Shown piece by piece: positions 11,338 to 14,956 of a DNA stretch of 64,000 nucleotides. How positions within the stretch are numbered: position 1 is the stretch's first letter; every line of letters starts with the position of its first letter. The notes under the pieces are model-generated. The model saw nothing but the letters and a program-made list of their open reading frames with translations. It was not told the origin of the DNA and ran no database searches. Location: assembly GCF_900109925.1 (NCBI RefSeq), contig NZ_FOBW01000004.1:124001-188000 (forward strand). Direction: 5' to 3'. Both the position numbers and the translations under genes were made by a program. This DNA comes from Mesobacillus persicus. Lineage in GTDB: Bacteria > Bacillota > Bacilli > Bacillales > Cytobacillaceae.

Positions 11338-12372
11338 TTAGCTCCCTAAATACCTTGAATAATACATTTTTGCCTCAGTAATATCTTCCACTCCGTGGAT
11401 AAGTACCCGACCATCTTTAAAAAAGACCATAGATACCTTATCATCAGGTGAAAACCGCAACAAAAAGGGATTCACTTTGACCTTCTCTAGCCCACTTAGC
11501 TTCAATTTTTTAGCAAGCTCCGTTAAGTCAAATTGCTTCACATTCCTCGGATTGATTTGGACTGTATCTCGTCCGCATAGGACCGCATAGGCGATTTGCT
11601 GATTGGAGGAGAGATCTAAAAATTCAAACTGATGTTGTCCACAGGTCGGACACTGAGGATTTCGCCCCTCTGAGATATCCATTTGCAAAGAAGATTGATA
11701 CCAAATGTCCAGCTGTTCTAGATTCGGATTGTGTTCCGCACCAACCAATAGCTTTACTGCCTCAATTGCTTCAAATGACCCAATGATATCAGTTAACGGC
11801 GAAAGAACGCCGATGGTATCACAAGTTTCTCCAAGGCCAGCGGGAACTTCTGGAAAAAGACAACGATAGCAAGGTGTTTTCCCTGGAATGATGACGGCAT
11901 ACATCCCTCTAGATGATACAGCGCCACCATATACCCAAGGAATGTCCAATTTTACGGAAACATCATTAATCAGATAGCGGGTGGAAAAATTGTCGGTTCC
12001 ATCAACAATGACATCAAACCCAGCCAAGAGTTCTTCGGCATTGTCTAAATTAAGGTCGGCGATGATTGAGTCAATTTTTACCGTTGAATTGATTTTCTTT
12101 AGCTTCTTTTCAGCGGCAATCACCTTAGGAAGCTGATTGGACGCATCGTCTTCATCATAAAGCGACTGGCGTTGGAGATTCGATAATTCAACCAAATCCC
12201 GGTCAATCATTCGAACATGTCCAACACCGGAGCGGACTAAATGGTTAGCGATCACGGTTCCAAGTGCCCCCATCCCAACAATAACCGCTCGGCTTTTTAA
12301 TAGCTTGCGCTGCCCTTCCTCCCCTATTGGCTTAAAAAGAATTTGTCGTGAATAACGATCTAGTTCGGTCAT
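11338..12372 (-). CDS. ThiF/MoeB/HesA-family E1-like adenylyltransferase
   Basis: Adenylates the C-terminal Gly-Gly of a ubiquitin-like sulfur carrier (MoaD or ThiS type) using ATP. The 344-residue protein has the nucleotide motif VGMGALGT, acidic loop DRDLVELSNLQRQ, DGTDNFSTRYLINDV, and zinc cysteine pairs in CYRCLFPE and CPTCG. A C-terminal extension of about 85 residues beyond the catalytic core has a ubiquitin-like feel (DTVQINPRNVKQFDLTELA). ATG 12372 follows GAGGG; the ATG at 12396 has no ribosome site. It is divergent from the tungsten AOR gene and near two GG-tailed small proteins, so tungstopterin synthesis is likelier than thiazole synthesis. Confidence 0.85.
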   Translation of the reverse strand: MTELDRYSRQILFKPIGEEGQRKLLKSRAVIVGMGALGTVIANHLVRSGVGHVRMIDRDLVELSNLQRQSLYDEDDASNQLPKVIAAEKKLKKINSTVKIDSIIADLNLDNAEELLAGFDVIVDGTDNFSTRYLINDVSVKLDIPWVYGGAVSSRGMYAVIIPGKTPCYRCLFPEVPAGLGETCDTIGVLSPLTDIIGSFEAIEAVKLLVGAEHNPNLEQLDIWYQSSLQMDISEGRNPQCPTCGQHQFEFLDLSSNQQIAYAVLCGRDTVQINPRNVKQFDLTELAKKLKLSGLEKVKVNPFLLRFSPDDKVSMVFFKDGRVLIHGVEDITEAKMYYSRYLGS

Positions 12373-12507
12373 TTTATCCCTCTTTTCCCTATCCATTATA
12401 AAAAAGATTTGGATTATTTAAAATAAGGAAGAAATTTTCTTTTATTCCATATATAATTATATATAGTTGTAGTTTTTTAAATAAATAGAAAGAGGTGGCA
12501 ATACACG

Positions 12508-14349
12508 ATGAATCTTGGCGGTTTTATGAACAAGGAAGTTGTAGTGGATTTAACAAGTGGGAAAGTCGATTATCGGGAACTCAACGAGGACTATGCGAGG
12601 AAATATATTGGGGCAAGAGGCCTTGGTGTAAAATACCTCCTAGATAACGGACCAGAAGTGGAACCGTTTTCAGAAGAAAATCTTTTGTGCTTTATGACCG
12701 GTCCCGTAACTGGATCACGGACTTCAATGAGTGGTCGTATGGCGGTTGTAACGAAATCACCGCTAACAGGCACCGTAACCGATTCCCATATTGGTGGGTG
12801 GACTGCAGCAAGAATTAAATGGGCTGGCGTTGATAACATTATTGTCAAAGGAAAAAGCGATAAGCCTGTCTATTTGTACATAGAAGATGGCCAGGCCGAA
12901 TTACGTGATGCCTCCGAGCTTTGGGGAACAAGCACAAGAGCAACCATTAAAGCGATGCAAGCAAAATATGGTGAAAAAGATTTGAGTGTATTGGCAATTG
13001 GTCAAGGAGGCGAAAACAAAGTTCGCTTTGCAGCCTTTATCAATGAGCATGATCGTTCAGCTGGTCGTGGTGGCACCGCTGCCGTTTCCGGTTATAAGAT
13101 GTTAAAGGCAATCGTTATTAAGGCCGCGCAAAAGGGCAATATGCCTGTACCTAAACAAAAAGATGCGAACAACGTAGCTAACAAAAAAGCCGTAAAAGCC
13201 TTGCTTGAAGGCGGATTAACTGCGCCGAAAAAGGGTGGCTTATCTGTATACGGTACAAACGTCCTTACAAACTTAATCAATGAAGTCGGAGCCCTTCCTA
13301 CAAAAAACTCCCAATTCACTCATTGGGATGAAGCGGAAAAGCATAGTGGTGAGTATGTTAACAAGCATTTACTTGTTGCAAATAACGCCTGTCATGCCTG
13401 TCCCGTGGCCTGTAAGATCGAAGTCGAAGTAAAAGATGGAAAATATAAAACTCGTGTAGAAAGCTTTGAGTTTGAGTCCTCTTGGTCTCTTGGCTCGAAC
13501 TGTCTTGTCAGCGATGCTGAAGCAATCGCTTATATGATTGACCAGTGTAATGAATATGGCCTTGATACAATTGAACTTGGTCATGCATTCTCTGTTACAA
13601 TGGAGGCTTATGAAAAAGGCCTAATCTCCGAACCTCTTAAATGGGGCGACAAGGATGCCATGATTGAATTAACGAAGAAAATTGCTTACCGTGAAGGCTT
13701 TGGTGGAGTCCTTGCCGAAGGTCCAGCTCGTGCAACAGCGGAGTGGGGCGCGCCTGAACTTTCCATGTCTGTTAAAGGACAGTCTATTCCTGCTTACGAT
13801 CCACGTGGGATTCAAGGTATCGGCCTCGGATATGCAACAAGTAACCGTGGTGCTTGTCACTTACGCGGATATACGGTTGCAAGTGAAATTGCTGGTATTC
13901 CAGAGCCAACCGATCGCCTAAAAGCAGAAGGCAAAGGGGAATTGTTAAAAACATTCCAGGATATGCTTGCCTTTGGAGATTCTATGGATATTTGTAAGTT
14001 CTCCTCGTTCTCTGAAAATGCCGAGCACTACGCTGAGCAATACAGCACAATGACAGGCGTTGAAATGACAGCTGAGGATGTTATGTTAGCTGGTGAACGT
14101 ATTTACAATATTGAGCGTTATTACAATAACTTAGCTGGTTTAGATAAGCGTGAGGATGATTTCCTTCCAAAGCGTTTCACAGATGAGCCAGCAAGTGGAA
14201 ATAGCGCAGGTTCTGTTAGCCGTATGGATATCATGCTTGAAGAATACTACCAAGTACGCGGATGGAAAGACGGGATTGTTCCCGCTGAAAAGCTTCGTGA
14301 GCTAGGTATTATTGCTGAAGACAGCTCTGCTACAACCGAACAAAAATAA
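12508..14349 (+). CDS. aor: Tungsten-dependent aldehyde:ferredoxin oxidoreductase
   Basis: Oxidises aldehydes to carboxylic acids with ferredoxin, using a bis-pterin tungsten cofactor and one 4Fe-4S cluster. The 613-residue protein carries the cluster ligands Cys295, Cys298, Cys302 (CHACPVAC) and Cys496 (MDICKF), the same spacing as known for archaeal AOR. The N-terminal pterin-binding region reads YIGARGLGVKYLL and GRMAVVTKSPLTG; DPRGIQGIGLGYATSNRGAC is also typical. AGGTGG precedes the ATG. It lies 5 kb from a tungstate importer and is divergent from the E1-like gene. Electron acceptor and aldehyde range are family knowledge, not seen here. Confidence 0.95.
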   Translation: MNLGGFMNKEVVVDLTSGKVDYRELNEDYARKYIGARGLGVKYLLDNGPEVEPFSEENLLCFMTGPVTGSRTSMSGRMAVVTKSPLTGTVTDSHIGGWTAARIKWAGVDNIIVKGKSDKPVYLYIEDGQAELRDASELWGTSTRATIKAMQAKYGEKDLSVLAIGQGGENKVRFAAFINEHDRSAGRGGTAAVSGYKMLKAIVIKAAQKGNMPVPKQKDANNVANKKAVKALLEGGLTAPKKGGLSVYGTNVLTNLINEVGALPTKNSQFTHWDEAEKHSGEYVNKHLLVANNACHACPVACKIEVEVKDGKYKTRVESFEFESSWSLGSNCLVSDAEAIAYMIDQCNEYGLDTIELGHAFSVTMEAYEKGLISEPLKWGDKDAMIELTKKIAYREGFGGVLAEGPARATAEWGAPELSMSVKGQSIPAYDPRGIQGIGLGYATSNRGACHLRGYTVASEIAGIPEPTDRLKAEGKGELLKTFQDMLAFGDSMDICKFSSFSENAEHYAEQYSTMTGVEMTAEDVMLAGERIYNIERYYNNLAGLDKREDDFLPKRFTDEPASGNSAGSVSRMDIMLEEYYQVRGWKDGIVPAEKLRELGIIAEDSSATTEQK

Positions 14350-14358
14350 AATAAAAAT

Positions 14359-14398
14359 GAGGGTGCTCCCAGTATTTTTGGGGACACCCTCGTTTTTA
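14359..14398. terminator. Bidirectional terminator between AOR and the GG-tailed protein genes
   Basis: Stem GAGGGTGCTCCC / GGGGACACCCTC (one mismatch) with A-rich left and T-rich right flanks. Confidence 0.88.
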
Positions 14399-14409
14399 TT
14401 TTATACCGC

Positions 14410-14682
14410 TTAGCCACCAACTCTTGTTGTTTTATAGCGGTATTGTTTAATTAGATCTTCCAGCCCTGACTCTGTCTCAGCTGTAAAGCGGATATGAACA
14501 GCATTTACTTTAAAAGTCTTCGTAAAGGTAAGTTTATCTTCACTAAGGATTTCCCCTGTCCATCCATTACCCTTATATACAAAAGGAAAAGCATCTGTCA
14601 GCAATTCTCCACCAAGCTCTTCAAAATACATCCCAAGATGATTTCGGTTAATGCCACGGAACTCTAGTTCACGACTTGCCAT
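14410..14682 (-). CDS. Unknown 90-residue protein ending in Gly-Gly, coupled to the MoaD-like gene
   Basis: No family was recognised. It starts MASRELEFRG at the ATG behind AGGTGG, one base after the stop of the MoaD-like gene (TGA-T-ATG), so it is translationally coupled. It ends KTTRVGG, a free diglycine tail like that of ubiquitin-like sulfur carriers. It is predicted to be soluble with alternating beta strands (TFTKTFKVNAVHIRFTAET) and no cysteine. Position between AOR and a sulfur-carrier gene suggests a role in tungstopterin assembly or AOR maturation; a second carrier or a small MoaE-like partner are possibilities, neither proven. Confidence 0.8.
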   Translation of the reverse strand: MASRELEFRGINRNHLGMYFEELGGELLTDAFPFVYKGNGWTGEILSEDKLTFTKTFKVNAVHIRFTAETESGLEDLIKQYRYKTTRVGG

Positions 14683-14683
14683 A

Positions 14684-14956
14684 TCAACCACCTGCTACCG
14701 GAGGAAATAGGGCAAACTGATCGCTTTGTTCTACCTTTGTCTGAAGGTCATCCAAATGGATAATGTTTTTCCCATTTATGTATACATGGACAAATGGCTT
14801 GAGCTTCTTTTCTTCTGTGAAAATTTCTTCATCAATCTCTGGAAACATTTCAACCATTTTATCAAGGATATCGATGACTCGATCGCCATCTGACTTTACT
14901 TCCACCTGAACTCCGCCACAAATATCTCGGAGATTGGCAAATACCTTTACTTGCAT
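14684..14956 (-). CDS. MoaD/ThiS-family ubiquitin-like sulfur carrier
   Basis: Small carrier of 90 residues that would receive AMP and then sulfur on its terminal Gly-Gly and donate sulfur to the pterin cofactor. It starts MQVKVFANLRDICGG, a beta-grasp opening seen in MoaD proteins, contains PFVHVYINGKNI, and ends FPPVAGG. It is larger than usual MoaD (about 80 residues), like archaeal and tungsten-associated MoaD proteins. It lies next to the tungsten AOR and near an E1-like enzyme. A role in tungstopterin rather than thiamine is inferred from context. Confidence 0.85.
   Translation of the reverse strand: MQVKVFANLRDICGGVQVEVKSDGDRVIDILDKMVEMFPEIDEEIFTEEKKLKPFVHVYINGKNIIHLDDLQTKVEQSDQFALFPPVAGG

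Follow-up and report, generated by a model that had tools for sequence, protein, structure and literature searches.

A predicted TBP-like protein with a conserved Gly-Gly tail is encoded directly behind a MoaD-like gene and is tied to tungsten aldehyde ferredoxin oxidoreductase in Bacillota

The window, the whole stretch of 64,000 nucleotides of Mesobacillus persicus DNA that was analyzed, contains a compact gene cassette around a tungsten aldehyde ferredoxin oxidoreductase (AOR). The genes and features of the cassette were as follows.

11338 to 12396, minus strand: E1-like MoeB/ThiF adenylyltransferase of the PRK12475 type, 352 amino acids, ThiF match; the AOR-dedicated copy
11341 to 11622, minus strand: C-terminal TBP-like domain of this E1, from the predicted structure; shared with the genome's canonical E1
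12508 to 14349, plus strand: AOR/WOR, tungsten aldehyde ferredoxin oxidoreductase, AFOR_N/C match; convergent with U90
14350 to 14409: intergenic stretch between the convergent AOR and U90 genes, with a terminator-like hairpin (stem, 14379-14392)
14410 to 14682, minus strand: U90, 90 amino acids, predicted TBP-like fold, invariant C-terminal RxGG; putative detached homolog of the DUF1952 domain (Thermus MoaD fusion 1v8c)
14680 to 14695, minus strand: moaD2/U90 junction, GCAGGTGGTTGATATG, with a gap of 1 nt
14684 to 14956, minus strand: moaD2, 90 amino acids, SAMP1-type MoaD/ThiS ubiquitin-like protein ending in FPPVAGG

The preliminary description of this DNA had reported two adjoining small proteins, one base apart and both ending in Gly-Gly (GG), and the ORF coordinates and translations confirmed this arrangement. 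The U90 ORF starts with an ATG at 14682 (the listed ORF reaches further, to a GTG at 14691), and its product ends in KTTRVGG. The moaD2 product matched SAMP1 with 108 bits (cut-off, 60) and was also matched by ThiS and MoaD in Pfam/NCBIfam. The other two neighbors that had been described, a tungsten AOR and, about 2 kb from U90 on the far side of AOR, an E1-like enzyme, were likewise supported by the AFOR_N/C and ThiF matches. The spacing between moaD2 and U90 was exactly 1 nt in 85 of 102 loci, and an SD-like AGGTGG for U90 sits within the GG codons of moaD2; because of this gap and this sequence, the two genes are probably cotranslated. For the cassette, there was no riboswitch match in Rfam above the gathering cut-off, and promoter-like and terminator-like sites were no more frequent than in shuffled sequences. 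On a different contig, the same genome carries moaE, a canonical MoaD gene (product ending in PPVSGG), and a second E1 gene; therefore, the AOR cassette holds its own second MoaD and E1.

U90 itself, which the first reading had left unrecognized, had no family above threshold in Pfam or NCBIfam, no match in PHROGs, and none in the PDB when its sequences were searched with the close profile. All seven genomes of the genus had the protein, as did 102 of the 193 genomes of the bacterial family, and the species-level collection contained 45 U90 loci. Profile searches across the order and the phylum Bacillota recovered divergent members with approximately 20 to 35% identity, and every intact one ended in GG. 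The terminal GG was retained in 80 of the 80 loci that were read, the orthologous loci numbering more than 100 in all; orthologs lacking this ending, which would have counted against a role for the tail, were not encountered among the intact ones that were read. In the close set, the invariant positions included R9-G10, Y19, W41, R82, K84, T85, R87, G89, and G90. The two terminal glycines were encoded by more than a dozen synonymous codon combinations, and none of 334 neighborhood ORFs of at least 150 amino acids ended in GG. Conservation of the tail in divergent members, variation of its codons, and its absence from the neighboring ORFs together indicate selection at the protein level.

Co-occurrence with AOR, which had been proposed as a check, was strict within the family: AOR was present in 102 of 102 genomes with U90, and U90 was present in none of the 87 genomes lacking AOR (Fisher p of about 1e-50 over the 193 family genomes, uncorrected for phylogeny). 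Four family genomes had AOR without U90; two of these were contig-end artifacts and two were true losses (G034 and G125). In G125 (locus L133, 4780-8250), moaD2, AOR, and E1 were kept together with the TBP-like domain of the E1, and U90 was lost. In G034 (locus L134, 666-3898), AOR and moaD2 were kept, U90 was missing, and the E1 stopped before its TBP-like C-terminal domain. Since these two family members retain moaD2 and AOR without U90, U90 is dispensable at least sometimes. Loss of U90 together with the C-terminal domain of the E1, as in L134, proved not to be a rule: L133, without U90, keeps the domain, and a clostridial locus (L116) has U90 with a domainless E1. As a separate observation, the E1 of L133 itself ends in KYIGG and that of L138 (G026), where U90 is present, ends in ARYAGG; the usual ending in this group of E1s is YxG followed by S, N, or T.

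Of the 12 genomes with U90 in the phylum sample, 11 had AOR, the exception being a weak match, against an AOR base rate of 204 in 348. The order moaD2-U90-AOR-E1 recurred as a cassette in the Bacillota loci examined. Many clostridial AOR genomes were without a detectable U90, and several clostridial U90 genes adjoined neither moaD nor AOR, some of them lying away from any E1. Such detached clostridial homologs were seen at loci L117 to L127, nearly all in genomes with AOR elsewhere, and some (L118 and L122, for example) lie beside sigma-factor/anti-sigma genes. The clostridial cluster at L116 (7634-14936) comprises a short E1 (230 amino acids, no C-terminal domain), U90, and MobB-like, AOR, MoaD, and MoeA-like genes. 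In one genome, AOR is broken into two pieces by an in-frame TGA (G162, C1, 3036149-3037239), and U90 and moaD2 of the same genome are intact. Thus, the suggestion that a second GG-ending protein is grouped with MoaD, E1, and AOR held: the genes form one cassette, the tail is conserved, and U90 is strictly tied to AOR in the family.

MoaE was present in 193 of 193 family genomes, with or without U90, and U90 had no match to the MoaE domain. A role as a substitute for MoaE was therefore ruled out; with MoaE universal, U90 does not replace it. Because U90 strictly accompanies AOR even though MoaE occurs in every family genome, we infer that its role in pterin cofactor synthesis is confined to the tungsten branch.

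The 90-residue protein had been expected to adopt a beta-grasp fold, and the prediction contradicted this expectation. The AlphaFold2 model of U90 (42 homologs; pLDDT, 87) had the order beta-alpha-beta-beta-beta-alpha, which rules out the beta-beta-alpha-beta-beta topology of the beta-grasp fold, and the ThiS, MoaD, and Urm1 HMMs gave no match to U90. In this model, residues 88 to 90 are of low confidence and emerge from a long C-terminal helix; all structure models were of single chains. The best solved match was residues 86 to 165 of 1v8c, a "MoaD related protein" of Thermus thermophilus HB8 (Foldseek E, 9e-4; VIA Z, 11.7; rmsd, 1.6 A over 80 residues; next matches, about 8). The C-terminal domain of 1v8c was also related to U90 by profile (hhalign probability, 92%; HMM, 13.2 bits versus 6.6 for the best shuffle). 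Further matches, at Z of 7 to 8, were the phosphoglucomutase C-terminal domain, KA1, and Bet v1-like folds, which are grouped as TBP-like in SCOP, and the predicted fold of U90 falls within this TBP-like class.

In 1v8c, the MoaD part reaches PPVAGG at residue 87 and then runs straight into the U90-like domain, so the Thermus protein can be considered a natural MoaD-U90 fusion. This C-terminal domain is Pfam PF09189 (DUF1952), and the chain ends in AASRGGG at residue 168; the PF09189 HMM had no match above the cut-off in the M. persicus genome or in U90 family members. From the sequence, the MoaD GG of the intact fusion would be internal and the GG of the U90 domain the only free one. Model and sequence together thus present U90 as the predicted detached, tail-bearing partner domain of MoaD.

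The C-terminal extension of the window E1, which had been called unusual, turned out to be ordinary. The canonical MoeB-type E1 of the same genome carries one as well, and Makarova and Koonin (2010, PMC2948915) described a TBP-like C-terminal domain in the majority of E1s of this type. Modeled separately, the C-terminal domain of the window E1 (pLDDT, 82) matched the TBP of M. jannaschii with Z of 8.9, and TBP chains headed the list of matches. U90 was rejected as a homolog of this domain: the two share a fold class, and the hhalign probability was only 9%, which is not significant, and the common fold may have arisen by convergence. Taken as a whole, the preliminary reading stands for a conserved second GG-tailed protein in an AOR-tied cassette and falls for the beta-grasp fold and the unusual E1 extension.

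Sampling of phyla outside Bacillota covered plasmids and the PDB. Among plasmids, a search with U90 of the window as the query found no homologs; a haloarchaeal sequence used as the query recovered them. A Salarchaeum plasmid (L129) carries a SAMP1-type gene, an 85-amino-acid U90 homolog ending in KAIRAGG, and AOR, with no E1 seen nearby, and a Natronococcus plasmid carries a homolog ending in AMRAGG. In a Halopiger plasmid (L131, 3771-4244), a homolog spread over two frames ends in RAPG and is apparently decayed, with no AOR annotated nearby. In a Haladaptatus plasmid (L128, 3663-3914), a second MoaD/SAMP1-like protein lacks GG (it ends in PPMVED) and is divergent from the SAMP1-type gene beside AOR.

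E1 enzymes of this type act on the tails of beta-grasp proteins, and since its predicted fold is not of that kind, U90 should be unable to dock on E1 in the standard MoaD way. That a GG handle has stayed unchanged on a different fold in both bacteria and archaea suggests recognition of this handle, on a non-ubiquitin body, by an activating or sulfur-transfer enzyme. We propose that U90 is a tail-dependent partner in tungstopterin thiolation, a reading that we consider somewhat better than evenly supported and about half of which consists of true activation of the tail. U90 would be a free-standing version of the TBP-like domain found fused C-terminally to a MoaD-like protein in Thermus, and it would be made in coupled synthesis with the AOR-dedicated MoaD2, as the 1-base spacing and the SD-like sequence in the moaD2 GG codons imply. 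It most likely binds MoaD2, as the Thermus fusion suggests, and the place that its invariant free GG tail most probably enters is the site where the E1 or a MoaE-type MPT synthase accepts GG ends. At that site, the tail may itself be adenylated or thiocarboxylated, which would make U90 a second, non-beta-grasp sulfur carrier, or it may position and hand over the MoaD2 thiocarboxylate.

The strong form of this proposal, in which U90 is a true second carrier, is put forward tentatively. Here, the E1 would adenylate the C-terminal glycine of U90 for thiocarboxylate formation or protein conjugation, in a ubiquitin-like manner on a TBP-like scaffold. The invariance of the free GG, the dedicated E1 within the same cassette, and the Thermus fusion, whose only free GG belongs to the U90 domain, are consistent with this role, which PMC2948915 proposes for haloarchaeal TBP-like GG proteins. 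However, U90 would have no beta-grasp surface for E1 docking, the standard substrate is already supplied by MoaD2, losses of U90 are tolerated (L133 and L134), and some U90 genes lie away from any E1. A still broader version, which we regard as speculative and doubtful, would have E1s truly activate a GG protein with a TBP-like scaffold in bacteria as well as archaea; alongside the ubiquitin-like carrier, another one of unrelated structure would have evolved for tungsten cofactor thiolation alone, and in Thermus the two would have been fused and the tail of the TBP domain would have taken over as the active tail.

The strict dependence of U90 on AOR, its conserved basic residues R9, R82, K84, and R87, and the clostridial genomes in which U90 is unlinked to moaD and AOR is nonetheless present would also fit an AOR-specific maturation chaperone. 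In that case, the basic residues and the tail would bind the W-bis-pterin or apo-AOR and aid insertion, and adjacency to moaD2 would reflect shared regulation only. We consider this unlikely, since the 1-nt adjacency to moaD2 and the fusion to MoaD in Thermus indicate MoaD rather than AOR as the partner, and a chaperone role alone leaves the invariant GG at the extreme C terminus unexplained. Less probable still is an unmodified tail mimic that regulates E1 or MPT synthase, a pseudosubstrate steering the shared MoaE between the molybdenum and tungsten branches. Branch control could be of use in a genome that keeps a distinct canonical set of moaE, moaD, and E1 genes, and the TBP-like fold also occurs in the E1 C-terminal domain; however, selection for an exact terminal GG should be looser on a competitive mimic. 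Finally, two-residue motifs can appear by chance, but a coincidental GG ending is extremely improbable given its retention with varying codons in more than 100 orthologous loci and its absence from the 334 neighborhood ORFs.

U90 carries a conserved GG tail on a fold of another kind, occurs in strict association with one enzyme, and has one E1 as a neighbor; it is thus a clean candidate, open to testing, for E1 chemistry outside the ubiquitin-like folds. In addition, U90 is a candidate for the missing factor in the synthesis of the tungsten, as opposed to the molybdenum, cofactor in Bacillaceae, and a likely role is offered both for DUF1952, whose structure was solved with no function assigned, and for a haloarchaeal family that has stood as a prediction since 2010. 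Relative to the literature found, the new elements are a U90 family that is widespread in Bacillota, tied to tungsten AOR, and placed one base behind moaD2, and its correspondence, with a conserved GG, to the fused DUF1952 domain of 1v8c.

The AOR-MoaD-E1 gene cluster has already been published, as has the idea of TBP-like GG proteins in haloarchaea (2010, PMC2948915). A cluster of MoaD-like, E1, and AOR genes has been proposed to act in tungstopterin synthesis (Iyer, Burroughs and Aravind 2006, PMC1779556; WorX, PMC13328260), and Thermus is listed among the AOR-MoaD clusters (PMC1779556). Unlike the cassette described here, the AOR-linked MoaD/MoeB clusters and WorX are presented, in the relevant passages of these two papers, with no mention of a second GG-ending, non-beta-grasp gene. 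In Thermococcus, the E1-linked ubiquitin-like protein UblB (TK2118), with the E1 TK2117, has been tied experimentally to the tungsten cofactor; its GG tail is required, a GG-deleted version having been tried in complementation (PMC11323500). UblB is thus an E1-activated MoaD-family carrier for the tungsten cofactor, but it has a beta-grasp fold and is the counterpart of moaD2 rather than of U90.

The 1v8c C-terminal domain resembles U90 in predicted fold, in profile similarity, in its position directly after MoaD, and in its GG end; however, it is fused to MoaD in Thermus, whereas U90 is a separate gene in Bacillota and haloarchaea. The remaining comparison is with arCOG06308, a family of TBP-like fold and GG ending that is encoded beside a MoaD-like ubiquitin-like protein and has been called unique to Halobacteria; such TBP-like GG proteins have been suggested to be functional analogs of ubiquitin-like proteins (Makarova and Koonin 2010, PMC2948915). 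Like U90, it is a small protein that ends in GG and has a MoaD-like neighbor, with a TBP-like fold that is predicted in the case of U90, and the haloarchaeal U90 homologs P0001 and L132 fit the published description. By contrast with U90, arCOG06308 is reported from Halobacteria only, and the relevant section of PMC2948915 does not name AOR among its neighbors. Matched by description, U90 appears to be the bacterial, AOR-coupled counterpart of arCOG06308.
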